Below, piece by piece: positions 36,779 through 46,460 of a stretch of DNA of 64,000 bases. A model generated the notes under the pieces. It was not told the origin of the DNA, ran no database searches, and saw only the letters and a list, made by a program, of their open reading frames with translations. The stretch is from positions 62,001 through 126,000 of the forward strand of contig JQIS01000010.1 of assembly GCA_000830175.1 (NCBI GenBank), written 5' to 3'. The DNA is from Sulfurovum sp. FS08-3 (GTDB lineage Bacteria > Campylobacterota > Campylobacteria > Campylobacterales > Sulfurovaceae). The number at the start of each line of letters is the position of its first letter. The first letter of the stretch is position 1. The translations under genes and the position numbers were made by a program.

Positions 36779-36943
36779 TTAGGAGAGGTGGAATGAGGAA
36801 AATGCCCACATATAATTGATGGGATTGAGAGCCTTAAAAAACTTAAACTTATTTTTGGGCTTATGGTGCTTGGCATCATCCATACCGCTATCGTATCCAT
36901 CTTTTGAGTAGTCGCCACTGTAGATTTTGAAGGTGTTATTCAT
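36779..36943 (-). CDS. Small ORF (54 aa) coupled to the PIN toxin gene, possibly truncated
   Basis: ATG 36943 overlaps the PIN-gene stop (ATGAATAA) and has AAGG 7 bases upstream, inside the PIN coding end. The peptide has a coding-like composition (IYSGDYSKDGYDSGMDDA, then KALNPINYMWAF). The GYxxGxxDA style recalls longer proteins with repeated G-Y-x-x-G helices, so the 3' part may have been lost. The rest of 36633-36778 shows no gene. Confidence 0.4.
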   Translation of the reverse strand: MNNTFKIYSGDYSKDGYDSGMDDAKHHKPKNKFKFFKALNPINYMWAFSSFHLS

Positions 36944-37409
36944 CGCAAAACCTTAGAACATCATTATATACCTTACGACTAATCCATCGACCTCTCACAA
37001 TCATCTCATTAAGCAGTGGGGCAATCTCATCTATATAGCCTTTTTGCTTGGAGGCTATCAAAAATGATAAAGTTCTCTTGACATTTAGCTCTTGTGATTT
37101 GGCAATATTATAACCGATGGTCTCATCTATCAAGACAATATCAGCACTCATCTCTTTTGCCAAAACAATAGTTTGAGCCTCTCCCAAATCCAAATCATTG
37201 AGCAATATATTTTGTGCAAATTCATCTCTGATACGCTCTACTTGAAAGAACACATCATCAATCTCTTTGTAACCAAATGCCTTTTTGGATTTTATCTCAT
37301 CATAAACAGCTTGAGGTATATAGACTCTATCAAAAAAATGTCTCAAAATATCTATCCTACCGATAGAAGCCAATGAGATAATGGGTGTAGCATTGGATAC
37401 CACTATCAT
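36936..37409 (-). CDS. DUF3368 PIN-domain toxin
   Basis: A 157-residue PIN-like protein. The start VVSNATPIISLA has Asn at the usual first Asp, which is common in DUF3368. The second acidic site is in DLDLGEAQTIVLA and the third in DIVLIDETIG. The partner UPF0175 gene overlaps by 4 bases (ATGA). It is a predicted RNase toxin of a type II pair. Confidence 0.85.
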   Translation of the reverse strand: MIVVSNATPIISLASIGRIDILRHFFDRVYIPQAVYDEIKSKKAFGYKEIDDVFFQVERIRDEFAQNILLNDLDLGEAQTIVLAKEMSADIVLIDETIGYNIAKSQELNVKRTLSFLIASKQKGYIDEIAPLLNEMIVRGRWISRKVYNDVLRFCDE

Positions 37410-37690
37410 TTGAGCATATCCACCAAACTATCAGCGTCATCAAAAATCTCACTCATCTCTCTATGGGAGTAGTCAAATATCGGTATATTATCTTGTTTGA
37501 GTAGTTCAATAAAGCCCAATCTATCCATCCCAACAAATTGAGCCGATTTACCCAACGAGAGTTGTCTCTTTTGATACAAAGCTATAGCAGTATAGAGTTT
37601 CATCTTATAAGCCAACTCTTCTTTGGTAGATTTGAGTGAGATTAAGATAGAGTCATCTATTTGTATATTTGGTAGTGTTATTGTTTGCAT
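37406..37690 (-). CDS. UPF0175 antitoxin
   Basis: A 94-residue UPF0175 protein with an N-terminal strand, a KMKLYTAIALYQKRQLSLG helix and a helix-turn-helix-like AQFVGMDRLGFIELL segment. It precedes and overlaps the DUF3368 toxin gene, the usual antitoxin-first order. Confidence 0.85.
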   Translation of the reverse strand: MQTITLPNIQIDDSILISLKSTKEELAYKMKLYTAIALYQKRQLSLGKSAQFVGMDRLGFIELLKQDNIPIFDYSHREMSEIFDDADSLVDMLK

Positions 37691-37722
37691 TTTTTAGCTC
37701 CTTTTTGTATGATTGATAAGCT

Positions 37723-38007
37723 TTAACTCTCGTATGCATTCCCACGCAGGGGCGATGGGAATGAGTTAAGAGCTTCTAACTCCGCTTCTATATCATAATC
37801 ATCAATAGCAGGTATTTGATGTTTGTTTAGAAGCTTCATAAAAGAGTAAATATCCATATCCAAAAATTTAGCTCCTTGTGAGATAGATATTTTATGATTT
37901 TTGCAAAGTTCTAGTGCCAACTTTTGTTTAGCCAACTCTATTAAGTTTTGTTTACTCTCATTGATACTCAAAAAGAGTTCATCGGGTATCTCTATCGCTA
38001 GTTGCAT
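37723..38007 (-). CDS. UPF0175 antitoxin without adjacent toxin
   Basis: A 94-residue second UPF0175 protein (MQLAIEIPDELF start, ISISQGAKFLDMDIYSFM helix-turn-helix), very similar to the one at 46203-46460. It lies 32 bases upstream of the first pair and has no PIN gene of its own. Its C-terminus (SFPSPLRGNAYES) looks unlike the family and may come from fusion to flanking DNA after loss of its toxin. Confidence 0.8.
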   Translation of the reverse strand: MQLAIEIPDELFLSINESKQNLIELAKQKLALELCKNHKISISQGAKFLDMDIYSFMKLLNKHQIPAIDDYDIEAELEALNSFPSPLRGNAYES

Positions 38008-39138: not shown

Positions 39139-39522
39139 TTATAAAAGCTCTTTAATACTTTCGCCTACTCTTCTAGCAATATCAAGGCATTCATAGCAGA
39201 TTGTTTCATCAGGAGAGAAATCAGGCAATACAGAACCTAATGGATATTTGGAAACCAAATAGATTGAATCCATCAAGTCAATTTCATCTTCTGAAATATC
39301 AACAAAGACTTTTCGCTCTTTTAAAGTCTGCACAAGCGATGATAGTGAGTGTATTTTTTGTAATCTAATTCCCTTTTCTATGTAGTAGGCTTTGAGGTAT
39401 TTTTCACTTGCTTGTTGGGCGTTTTGTAGAGATGGATTAAAGAGCATACTGTTGAGCAGTACTTTAGCAGATTGTAAATTTTCATCTGCATACTCTAGCC
39501 ACAGTTTGGTTTCATCTTTCAT
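39139..39522 (-). CDS. HEPN-domain protein (toxin of a HEPN/MNT pair)
   Basis: A 127-residue HEPN protein starting at ATG 39522, which overlaps the MNT stop and has GAG/AAGG upstream. It has the classic HEPN helices (LWLEYADENLQSAKVLL, QNAQQASEKYLKAYYI) and IHSLSSLV. The Rx4-6H site is less clear than in HepT, so RNase activity is uncertain. Confidence 0.8.
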   Translation of the reverse strand: MKDETKLWLEYADENLQSAKVLLNSMLFNPSLQNAQQASEKYLKAYYIEKGIRLQKIHSLSSLVQTLKERKVFVDISEDEIDLMDSIYLVSKYPLGSVLPDFSPDETICYECLDIARRVGESIKELL

Positions 39523-39811
39523 AGATGACTCTACCTTCATTAATCTCTTGCATAAAGACCCCTTGTGTATTTTTTTTGATGGGTATAATATCAAGAGGAA
39601 TATCTTGGGAGAGTTCTCGCAACACTTTGCGATACTTGAGCGATAGTGTCAAAAAGTTTTGATTGGAGTTTTGAATAATGGCTATATCAATATCGTGAGG
39701 GCTGGAAGAACTCAAAAAAGAGCCAAAAACAATCACTTTATCAACCTCTACACATTGCGATAATTTCTCTCTAATGATTTGTAAACAGTTGTTTTTATTG
39801 ATTTGATTCAT
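39512..39811 (-). CDS. Minimal nucleotidyltransferase (MNT) antitoxin
   Basis: A 99-residue nucleotidyltransferase with VIVFGSFLSSSSPHDIDIAI (GS plus DxD motif). It is the upstream partner of the HEPN gene and overlaps its start. It differs clearly from the MntA at 25990, so this is a separate module. Confidence 0.82.
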   Translation of the reverse strand: MNQINKNNCLQIIREKLSQCVEVDKVIVFGSFLSSSSPHDIDIAIIQNSNQNFLTLSLKYRKVLRELSQDIPLDIIPIKKNTQGVFMQEINEGRVIYER

Positions 39812-41409: not shown

Positions 41410-41676
41410 TCAAACACTCAATTTAATCTTATCCGTAGCGTATTGATGAATCAGTGCGTTAATCAATGTCTGATAAGGAATCCCTAGCTCTCGTGATTTG
41501 CTTTTGATTCCCTCCAAATCGACTCCATTGATACGAATGGTGATATTTTTGGATTTGGATAGATGCTCTTTGGCGTATCTTTTGGCTAATGCTATCTCTC
41601 CGTTGGCATCTATTGAGCGTTTGATTGTATCATTTTCGAGGGCTTCTAATATCTCTAACTCTTCTTTGTCAAACAT
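41410..41676 (-). CDS. Ribbon-helix-helix antitoxin
   Basis: An 88-residue protein with a charged N-terminal region and a C-terminal RHH segment (KNITIRINGVDLEGIKSK, then GIPYQTLINALIHQYATDKI), as in CopG/BrnA-type antitoxins. The gene just upstream is a remnant of the toxin, so the antitoxin appears orphaned. Confidence 0.8.
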   Translation of the reverse strand: MFDKEELEILEALENDTIKRSIDANGEIALAKRYAKEHLSKSKNITIRINGVDLEGIKSKSRELGIPYQTLINALIHQYATDKIKLSV

Positions 41677-41679
41677 CGG

Positions 41680-41841
41680 CTATCCTTTATATTTTTTCTT
41701 GGCTTTTCGACTGGGTATTATGGTTTTAAGAAAGCGTTTATCTCCATCAATGACAAAAGGCACAAGATAAACATATCCCAACGCCTCTACCACATAGATT
41801 TTTTGGTTGGGATAATCAAGCTCATTAGGATGGGTATATTG
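41680..41841 (-). pseudogene. Remnant of a BrnT-like toxin gene
   Basis: An open frame without start codon encodes YTHPNELDYPNQKIYVVEAL, then YVYLVPFVIDGDKRFLKTII and PSRKAKKKYKG before a TAG stop 3 bases upstream of the antitoxin ATG. This is the C-terminal half of toxins that pair with RHH antitoxins of this kind (ending IIPSRKAxKKY). The frame is closed by TGA at 41842-41844, and the N-terminal half is missing. Confidence 0.7.
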
Positions 41842-41983: not shown

Positions 41984-44900
41984 TTAATAATCTTCCATAA
42001 AGTTTCTTCGTTTTTCATTTTTAATCTTTGTTTCTATCTCTTTAATGATATTTTGTACTTTTAGTCTGTGTCGAATAAATGTCACCCCCGATAAAAGACT
42101 TTCAAAGGATTGAAGATACTCTTTGTATTGTTCTAAGCTTGGAACCATACTGTTGCCACGCCAACTCCAAGAATAGGGTTTATAAAAAACTTTATCAAAT
42201 AGTTCAAATGAGTCATTACACTCTAAAAAATATGGTATCCACTCTTTTTTTGCTCATATGGGTATTCATCAATAAACTTAAATATAAACTTGCTACGCTC
42301 TTCATCTGTAGCATACTTTTGGATAAGTTTTTTGATTGTTGTATTAACCTTTTCCTCGCCTATTTCTTTATCTTCAAAAAAGGATTTAAGCTCTTTACTA
42401 TCAATATAATGATTTTTTTGATAAATTTTAAAAAAAGTCTCTACTAATCTAAAGATAATACGCTCATAATCTTCTCTCTCCCAAATTATGGAAAATTCAC
42501 GATTAACACTGTGATTAGAAGATGAAAAGCCTTGTTTATCATAATGGTGATAGATGTAATCTTCAATAAATAAGTCATCCATAGTGAGTATTTTATTAAA
42601 AATAGTATAGTCATAATCACGATCATATTCGTGGTTCGCTGTATGTAAAAAATAGAGTTCTTTAAGTAAGTCGATATTATTTTCAAAATACATTTCTAAG
42701 TTTTTATAGATATTTGTATTTGGATTAAAGATACCACTTAATAGGCTAATAAAGCTTTCCTCTTCGTTCTTAATTCGCTTATATACAATATCAACAATCT
42801 CTTGAAATATCGTTGGTTTGATATGCATATATTTTTCAATGAAGTCAGAAGATGGAATATTAAGTATTGATTGTGTAGAACGATAAAAATCTAACAGTTG
42901 CTTGACTTCATATTCGCCTATTTGCTCTTGTGATAATAAATAAAAAAAGTTTAACAGAGATGCATCTTTGTTTTGGCAATCGTATTGATTGATAAGTTTA
43001 TAGGCTTCCTCTTTACCTAAAGTTTCTATTAAATGAAAAACATTGATATCAAGGGAGAGTTTGTTACCTGATTTTAAAGACTCTTTAATGACTTCAATAT
43101 ACAATTTTTGGTTATAAATTACGAGTTCACTAAGTGCATACTCTATATTATTTGTTCTTATTCTATCGTTTATTCTTATTGATAAATTCAAGAGATATTT
43201 CCAATCTTTAAATTTATACTCTTTAAAGAAACTCCATAATCTTCCTTTCAATTCTTCTTCAATAGCTTTCCGATCATGTTTTTCTTCTTCTTTTTCGAGA
43301 GCAATACTTACTTTATCTAAGAGCAATACTTTTTCAATTACATAATCTTTATGATTAAATATATTACGAATTTCTTGCTGATATTCCATCTTGCGGTTGT
43401 CCAAAAAATCTAAAAAGTGTTGCATGATTGAACACTCTTCATAATTAGTTATATCAAAAGTTGTTTGCATAAAATTGAGTATTTGTTCGCTATCCCATTG
43501 CTCTATCTCTGTAATACCAATATGAATACTTATTCCTTTGGGATATATTGAAATAAGTGTAAAAATATCATCTTTGTAGTTTTTCTTATCATACAACGAA
43601 AAGACTCTATCTAAAACAGTTTTGCGTAGTTCTTTTAATTCATCTGTTTGAGCAGGTTTATAGTGGATTGTTTGGATTGTATTTTTGTTCTTTTTTACTA
43701 GAGTATCTTGAAATTCTGTTTTTAGTAGCTCACTAGATACTCTAATAAAGAGTTTCGTTATTAAAATATTTTCTCCATTTTGAGTAAAATTCCATAAAGT
43801 ATCTATTAAGTGCTTCTCTTTTGAATATTCATAATGATGACTATCTTTCTTGTAGGTAAAATTTTTTGTTAAAATGCTAATAGTTGCAGATAACTGTAAA
43901 GGCTCTTTTTCTAAATATTTAATAATTAGTTCTATTGCAGATGAAATATTTTCATTATCATTGCCAAAAAAAGATAATATTTCTAAAATTTCATTATTTA
44001 AATAACTACTTTTATCTTTCCAAAAATCCAATGAATCTACGTCAACAACTTGCTGTTGCACTTTTTCTATTTTATCATTCACATAGACCAAGGTATCAGT
44101 TTTTTTCATAAACCAAAAGAGCCTTATAGCTTCTAATAAGTTTGTTTTATCGTTATAATATTTACTCCATAGGTTATCAATAGAGCTTTGTAGTACTTCT
44201 TTAATGGTATCATGGTTAAAAGTTTCAATAATTGGATTTAAAGTATCAATAAATCGTTGTTTGTATTTAGGAAAGAAGTTATCCAATAAAAGATAAAAAT
44301 TAATTTGCTTCTCCACAAACACAATTTTATAAAAAAGATAAGTAGATAAAATTTGGTCAGATACCTTTACAACTTCATTTTGGTACAAATCCACTATCTC
44401 TAAACGATTAAGTTTTACTACTTGCTCCCAAAAATCCTTGGAGGATATGCTAAAAACTTTTTCAATTAATTGCATCTGTTCGTCGTGAGATTTATCAACA
44501 GCTCTAAAAAATGAGATAACCGTAAGAGATACAACTTGATTATGGTTATTTAAAATATCTATATCATCTTTGACACTTTTAAAATACTCATCATATATTT
44601 TAGTAGCATCGTAGATTGATTTTAGACTTTTTGTCTCTTTAGCAACCCTAGCAGCCATTAAAGCAAGTCTTGGATTACCTTGAGAAACCCGCCAAATTTG
44701 TTCATGATAGTCAGGATTTTTGATTTGATATATATCTTCTACGAGACTTGTTATCTCTTTTTCGTCAAATGGTTTAAGTTCTATCTCTGCTTTACTAATA
44801 AGTGTGGGGATTTTATCAAAAGTTGCTTTTTGAGCATAATCTCTAACCGTAGCTACAATTTTAATTTGATGATTATTGATTTTGTGTTTATGATAATTTA

Positions 44901-45732
44901 AAATATAATCCAAAACTTGATAGACTCTATTAATATCATCAATCAAAATAAGATATTTTTTATCATCCCCAAAATAGGCTTTTATATCATCAAATAAATC
45001 CACACTTTTATTGAATATAGCTTTAAAAATATATTGATTGTTTTTAGCATAACTTTGGCACTCTTCTAATGCAAATTTTGTTTTGCCTACTCCTGCCTTT
45101 CCTGTTATAAAAAGTATTTGATTGCTATCTAGCAACTCATAGAATTGTTTTTTTTCATCCTCTCTAAATTTAAATTGATTATTTAGTTTCGTTGTATATC
45201 TGCTACTGTCATCATAAGTCTTTATAAAATCATCATAATCTAAAATTTGATTGGTATCGATTTCTATATTTAAAAAGTCTTTAGCTACTTTTGCATAGTT
45301 ATTATTAATATCAATGCTCATCATCGAATTTGTCAAAATTTCACATTGATTAACCCTATGCTCTTTGCATCTGTTTTGAAGAGTCTCTATATCGGATAGT
45401 TTCAAATTTCTGTTACAAGCCAATATAATTTTTTCTATTTGTGATACGGCTATGCCTGTCTTGGATTCATTAAAACATTTATCTAAATCTTCTAATAACT
45501 TCTCTAATATTCCCGTTTCTCTAGTTGTATATTCCATAAATAGATATTGACCATTGTCAAGTATAGCAAAACTATCAGGAGTACCAGTAGTTGATTTATC
45601 TTCTCCAAGCTTTGTCCCATTTGACTGTATTATATAACCATATTTTTTATTAAGATAGTTATCAACAAGTTTATGAAACTTAGTAGCATCCATTTCAATT
45701 AAAGTTTTTTCAATTTGGTTGATTTTACTCAT
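41984..45732 (-). CDS. Nuclease-STAND NTPase (Avs-like, nSTAND3 type), interrupted by a -1 frameshift site
   Basis: The main frame (42223-45732) gives 1169 residues. An N-terminal PD-(D/E)XK-like domain has GTPDSFAI (Asp53) and FMEYTTRE (Glu68). A STAND NTPase follows, with Walker A GKAGVGKT (211-218) and Walker B ILIDDINRV (Asp265/266), then a long helical sensor region. The frame ends in TAG soon after CAA AAA AAG (42244-42252). In the -1 frame, reading on from the A7 run gives 86 more residues (EWIPYFLECND to NFMEDY, stop 41984-41986) with a strongly coding look (PYSWSWRGNSMVPSLEQY), which I judge to be the natural C-terminus. The slip site is a perfect A AAA AAG heptamer. Programmed frameshift, phase variation, decay and sequencing error are all possible. 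The remaining bases to 41842 hold nothing evident. Confidence 0.8.
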
Positions 45733-45744
45733 ATTGTTTTAAAT

Positions 45745-46206
45745 CTACTCTCCAAATTCTCGTAAAATTGTCTCAAGTAAATGTTTTGATATAAATAGAT
45801 TTGAGTTTTGTAGTTTTTCTAAATCATCTTTGATGGATGAGATGAAATTTTTCTCTTTTGCCAATATCAAAACACCCAATGAGCCAATCACATTTACACC
45901 ATTAAGCTGTGCAAAACTTTTGGCTCGTTTATCATCAATCAATAAAAAGTCGGCATTCATATCTTTATAGAGCCGTATGGCTTCAAGTTCGCCTTGCCCC
46001 AAACCCATTTTACTAATATCGAGTTCTACTTTTTTGACTCTATTGGCTAAAAATATTTTAAGTTTACTGCTTTGTGGTTTTTGTGTAATGGTCACTTCAT
46101 CATAAACGGCTTGTGGTACATAGATGGTATCAAAAATCTTTTCAAGTAACTCCAATCTATCCATCGTAGCCAAAGCCACAAGAGCTGAACTATCCCCTAT
46201 AATCAC
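45745..46206 (-). CDS. DUF3368 PIN-domain toxin (second)
   Basis: A 153-residue PIN protein with intact first Asp (IIGDSSALVALA), LGQGELEAIRL and DFLLIDDKRAKSFA acidic sites. It forms a 4-base-overlap pair with the UPF0175 gene. It follows the same design as the pair at 36936-37690 but is diverged. Confidence 0.87.
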   Translation of the reverse strand: MIIGDSSALVALATMDRLELLEKIFDTIYVPQAVYDEVTITQKPQSSKLKIFLANRVKKVELDISKMGLGQGELEAIRLYKDMNADFLLIDDKRAKSFAQLNGVNVIGSLGVLILAKEKNFISSIKDDLEKLQNSNLFISKHLLETILREFGE

Positions 46207-46460
46207 TTTAAAATACTCTTAGCACGAGCTACTTCATCTAAAATATCATAATCATCAATGACTGCAATACCGTTTTGACTCACTAACTCCATAAAGGTAT
46301 AAATATCCATTGAGAGCATTTTTGCTCCTTGTGAGAGTGATATTTGGTGCAATTTATAAAGCTCTAATACCAACTTTTCTTTCATGAGCTTTGTTAAACT
46401 CTGTGGAGTTTGATTAATACCGTAAAAGATATTATCGGGTATATCAATAGCTAATTGCAT
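46203..46460 (-). CDS. UPF0175 antitoxin (third)
   Basis: An 85-residue UPF0175 protein (MQLAIDIPDNIF start, LSQGAKMLSMDIYTFMELV helix-turn-helix). It closely resembles the lone antitoxin at 37723-38007 and much less the one at 37406-37690. Confidence 0.87.
   Translation of the reverse strand: MQLAIDIPDNIFYGINQTPQSLTKLMKEKLVLELYKLHQISLSQGAKMLSMDIYTFMELVSQNGIAVIDDYDILDEVARAKSILK

Follow-up and report, generated by a model that had tools for sequence, protein, structure and literature searches.

The 64,000-nucleotide window, the whole stretch of Sulfurovum sp. FS08-3 DNA analysed here, carries on its minus strand a gene for a STAND NTPase that is interrupted by a frame break close to its 3' end (Table 1). 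The ORF starts at the ATG at 45732, and the N-terminus that it encodes, MSKINQIE, is kept in most relatives in the alignment. Few parts of the window are as low in GC as this gene (27.5% GC against 38.7% for the window as a whole), which appears to have been acquired horizontally.

Table 1. Features at the STAND locus, with positions in the window.
Feature	Coordinates	Strand	Basis
UPF0175/DUF3368 (PIN-like) toxin-antitoxin pair, upstream of the STAND gene	45745..46460	-	
STAND NTPase ORF, zero frame, 1169 aa, truncated, Avs-like	42223..45732	-	ORF reading; start conserved
N-terminal ~165 aa, putative PD-(D/E)xK-type nuclease effector	45238..45732	-	invariant residues, fold
Walker A region ITGKAGVGKT (GKAGVGKT = residues 211-218)	45079..45111	-	invariant
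Walker B YLILIDD (residues 260-266)	44935..44955	-	D265, D266 invariant
A AAA AAG heptamer, end of A7 run, -1 slip phase	42244..42250	-	sequence
Premature zero-frame stop TAG, six codons past the heptamer	42223..42225	-	sequence
Detached C-terminus, -1 frame, 86 codons + TAA	41984..42244	-	in frame in 9/9 intact relatives
TAA closing the -1 frame	41984..41986	-	
CopG/BrnA-like antitoxin + C-terminal remnant of toxin gene, downstream	41410..41841	-	

The STAND gene and its setting

The N-terminal domain has an alpha/beta fold in the structure model, and its GTPD motif (residues 50-53), E67 and T69 are invariant in alignment A1; its Pfam REase matches are weak (AHJR-like, 0.026). We regard residues 1-165 as a putative PD-(D/E)xK-type nuclease domain, with a presumptive catalytic assignment. 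The same N-terminal domain sits on differing STAND/NACHT cores within the same bacterial family (L003/L007, L006 and L008, from G012, G022 and G096) and is 52-54% identical in the proteins of two of these three genomes; such an effector-like domain appears to be swapped as a module among STAND/NACHT cores. Next along the protein is a P-loop NTPase of the STAND kind, in which the Walker A GKAGVGKT and the Walker B LIDD are both conserved in the alignment. The match of this domain to Pfam nSTAND3 (PF20720), at 27.5 bits, exceeds the curated cut-off of 27.2 by a tiny margin, and some relatives fit other P-loop models better; all five members scanned gave nSTAND3 matches below E = 1. The C-terminal part is modelled as an all-helical alpha-solenoid (pLDDT 85), presumed to be the ligand sensor, and in the model the break removes its last four helices.

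When the N-terminal model was searched with Foldseek, the top matches were Avs4 (PDB 8dgf) and Avs3 (PDB 8dgc), with E values of 2e-9 to 2e-8 and low TM-scores to the Avs structures (about 0.3); the C-terminal solenoid model resembles generic HEAT-type proteins only. The gene shares with Avs systems (Avs4, Avs3 and also Avs5, PDB 9jap) the order of effector, STAND NTPase and alpha-helical C-terminal solenoid, as well as a setting in which relatives of the gene lie among restriction genes. It differs in that no significant sequence match was found in the PADLOC Avs models or the PDB Avs chains. We predict that the STAND gene is an Avs-like defence gene.

Several toxin-antitoxin genes share the AT-rich stretch that contains the window copy. 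Similar UPF0175/DUF3368 pairs (36936-38007 and 45745-46460, minus strand) flank the stretch, and a HEPN/nucleotidyltransferase pair lies inside it at 39139-39811. Ahead of the downstream antitoxin gene, only ~53 codons from the 3' end of the toxin gene are left; the 5' part of the toxin gene is absent beside the end of the STAND gene. In the closest relative, L019, the STAND gene belongs to a type I restriction-modification operon (L019:99-9245) of hsdM, two Bro-N genes, hsdS, STAND and RhuM, where it directly follows hsdS and its start overlaps the hsdS end by 4 nt; in L015 it adjoins an MmeI-type restriction-modification gene and an integrase. These neighbourhoods fit a defence role.

A frame break ahead of a conserved C-terminus

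The zero frame closes with CAA AAA AAG AGT GGA TAC CAT ATT TTT TAG. The first-pass annotation had reported this reading, with the TAG six codons on, the -1 frame open for 86 codons and the heptamer in the phase of dnaX-type sites, and on all of these points its coordinates and reading are exact. The openness of the 86 codons is by itself only moderately unusual, as open off-frame stretches of this length have a frequency of 0.9% inside real genes of the genome. Codon statistics fit the -1 frame, which scores -0.01 nats/codon; the two alternative frames score -0.38 and -0.55. That the segment is coding is established by its homologues, which encode the same residues in frame: the 86 residues, already noted as protein-like in the first-pass annotation, are a real protein segment.

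The homologues comprise nine full-length relatives, ~30-54% identical, from Campylobacterota, a Gracilibacteria MAG and a mussel symbiont. Five (L015-L018 and L058) come from related genomes and four from GTDB genomes, namely L019, from a Campylobacterales MAG and the closest at 54% identity, L020 from Sulfuricurvum MLSB, L021 from Gracilibacteria and L022 from a Bathymodiolus thiotrophic symbiont. Every one of the nine has a single uninterrupted ORF of ~1250 codons with the 86-residue segment in frame, and the first, five-row alignment has N1173, E1177, F1179, G1193, S1195, H1222 and F1245 as invariant C-terminal residues. A search of GTDB genome contigs with the window protein alone as query returned zero relatives, and the alignment as query recovered L019-L022; zero relatives were found in the viral contigs searched, and a plasmid search gave only distant Leptospira matches (~26% identity) ending short of the C-terminus.

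Against L019, 306 positions were compared ahead of the break and 80 beyond it, with identities of 45% and 40%, respectively, and the detached end contains no additional stops past the break. Since the post-break identity is near the pre-break value and further stops are lacking, the lesion would be recent, and the detached C-terminus has not decayed. The description of the gene as a STAND NTPase whose conserved C-terminus is no longer in frame is borne out.

Possible slippage at the A run

The headline proposal of the first-pass annotation was that programmed -1 ribosomal frameshifting of the dnaX type may yield two forms of the sensor. The heptamer, A AAA AAG, is indeed a perfect match in sequence and phase to dnaX-type sites, and is among the most efficient heptamers in E. 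coli if stimulators are present (PMC4066793); the product of a -1 shift would, moreover, match the ancestral protein. Against this, neither A AAA AAG nor any A7+ run is present at the aligned codons in any of the nine relatives, which need no shift, and the two frames overlap in none of them; L019, for example, has GAA AGA AGA AAA GAG. Comparison with homologues was the refutation that the first-pass annotation had set for itself, and its outcome, with the 86 residues always in frame and the heptamer never conserved, goes against the two-form proposal. Unlike dnaX-type sites, the STAND site also lacks stimulators: no SD-like motif (GAGG/GGAG/AGGA/GGNGG/AGGKG, the set taken from PMC4066793) occurs in the 30 nt upstream of the heptamer, and the folding of the RNA downstream of it is no stronger than that of shuffled controls (z = 0.08), with no stem-loop found. 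Nor is the heptamer rare, as it occurs in phase 25 times in 172 ORFs of at least 250 aa of the Sulfurovum sp. FS08-3 genome and a second time in the same STAND gene, unused, at gene nt 2036; it is common by chance in this genome. We consider programmed frameshifting very improbable.

The heptamer can instead be read as a by-product of the loss of one A from an ancestral A8 run. An A8 at a codon boundary before G, minus one A, necessarily gives A AAA AAG in slip phase, and because a single loss yields both, the heptamer and the frame break would be one event and not two coincidences.

Rescue of the frame by transcription was also considered, and was down-weighted. E. coli RNA polymerase needs at least seven T's in a row for productive slippage (PMC6260861), and restoration of the reading frame by transcription error was not seen in E. 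coli and Buchnera (PMC5574713). In tssM1 of C. rodentium, transcriptional slippage of ~20% at an A11 tract restores the frame (PMC4256274). Like the STAND gene, it has a premature stop preceded by a poly-A run, its conserved C-terminus lies in another frame, and ribosomal stimulators are absent; it differs in that its slippage was measured and in that its A11 is much longer than the A7 here. With no stimulator present, -1 heptamers in E. coli exceed a 0.055% background by a factor of about 10 at most (PMC4066793). With slippage so low in the absence of stimulators, and an A7 in place of the much longer tssM1 tract, we expect the truncated protein to predominate and the full-length form to be made in traces.

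It is conceivable, given that the nearest relative is just 54% identical, that this lineage only has recruited the A run, slippage then supplying full-length STAND sensor at a low, tuned level beside an abundant truncated form. We give this very little credence; if true, such lineage-specific slippage might damp autoimmunity or supply a regulatory short isoform.

Homopolymer lengths and the favoured reading

Whether the A7 run is real bears on the organism's gene, which would be intact if A7 were a consensus or assembly error. The assembly is a draft of 68 contigs for a 2.54 Mb genome, with a completeness of 100%, which speaks against such an error, as does a survey of 20 stretches of the genome (354 kb in total). 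In this sample only one other convincing homopolymer-split gene was found, at an A20 tract, and 51 A/T7+ runs inside 14 low-GC ORFs are undisturbed, a count that takes in the STAND zero-frame ORF and thus the break-site run itself. In simulation, the frame-aware coding model used picked up 56 of 80 single-base deletions at the looser setting; loosened to a penalty of -10 it flagged mostly ordinary operon overlaps, and the STAND gene, atypical in its codon usage, went unflagged. Homopolymer error is not pervasive in the assembly as sampled.

A further STAND copy, in G271 (C1:1640643-1644486; L048, L057), is 92% identical to the L016 gene with about 60 indels, almost all of them in A/T runs of at least 4 (4 to 5, 5 to 7, 6 to 5 or 7) and none in G/C runs. 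The indels are mostly confined to a low-GC stretch, and an adjacent 399-aa gene is clean; the pattern resembles a sequencing artefact local to that stretch. Its candidacy as a second decayed copy was dropped on account of these artefact-like indels, and it was left out as evidence of decay. That this same gene shows artefact-like A/T-run indels elsewhere beside clean neighbours, together with the draft state of the assembly and the low GC of the STAND gene relative to its window, gives an assembly error some weight; set against the survey, we hold it to be possible, though on balance unlikely. The balance tips somewhat towards a real, recent mutation over an assembly miscall, because homopolymer error is not pervasive in the sample.

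Defence genes are common targets of phase variation, and the break is a single-base difference in a homopolymer, as would be expected if the A run were a selected switch that turns the gene reversibly on and off. The same genome also has a tract that varies in length in another gene. This A20 run (G000:C63:26848-26867; L024:6848-6867) is on the same contig, outside the window, and the 2.54 Mb genome has no other A12+ tract; the run splits an HTH/TM gene, RodZ-like by eye, that lies between rlmB-like and aminotransferase genes. Two same-genus relatives, G003 and G004, have A10 at this position and the gene in frame, and the tract is a good phase-variation candidate, or else a length miscall. 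The STAND run, by comparison, has no A7+ counterpart at the site in the nine relatives and is of an ordinary kind, with 310 A/T7+ runs in the 354 kb sampled. At A7, or A8 before the break, it is also shorter than the at least 10 bases from which poly-A/T phase variation is usually called in Campylobacter (PMC6321876). A selected switch is improbable here.

Our favoured reading, which we hold with moderate confidence, is that a genuine and recent one-base deletion of an A occurred near the 3' end of an ancestrally single-ORF, horizontally acquired, Avs-like STAND gene, and that the heptamer is its by-product. The ancestral state would have been one ORF of ~1249 codons, in which an A8 run before a G lost one A, leaving A7 and breaking the frame. 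We infer that the DNA is truly A7 in the organism. The main product would then end at 1169 aa, minus the last four solenoid helices, and would probably be off or impaired, with unaided ribosome or polymerase slippage adding a trace of full-length protein at most; we likewise infer that the truncation abolishes function. Decay, homopolymer error and phase variation, which the first-pass annotation had listed as alternatives, remain live explanations, and what has fallen away is its inference of two forms.

The event is thus probably a real and recent homopolymer frameshift of an ordinary kind in an Avs-like STAND gene, and bacterial immunity loses a tempting but unsupported example of programmed frameshifting. 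The analysis also describes a small family of Avs-like STAND proteins, found in defence neighbourhoods and not represented as such in the PADLOC version used; its member in Sulfurovum sp. FS08-3 illustrates how a perfect dnaX-type heptamer can arise from an indel in an A run.
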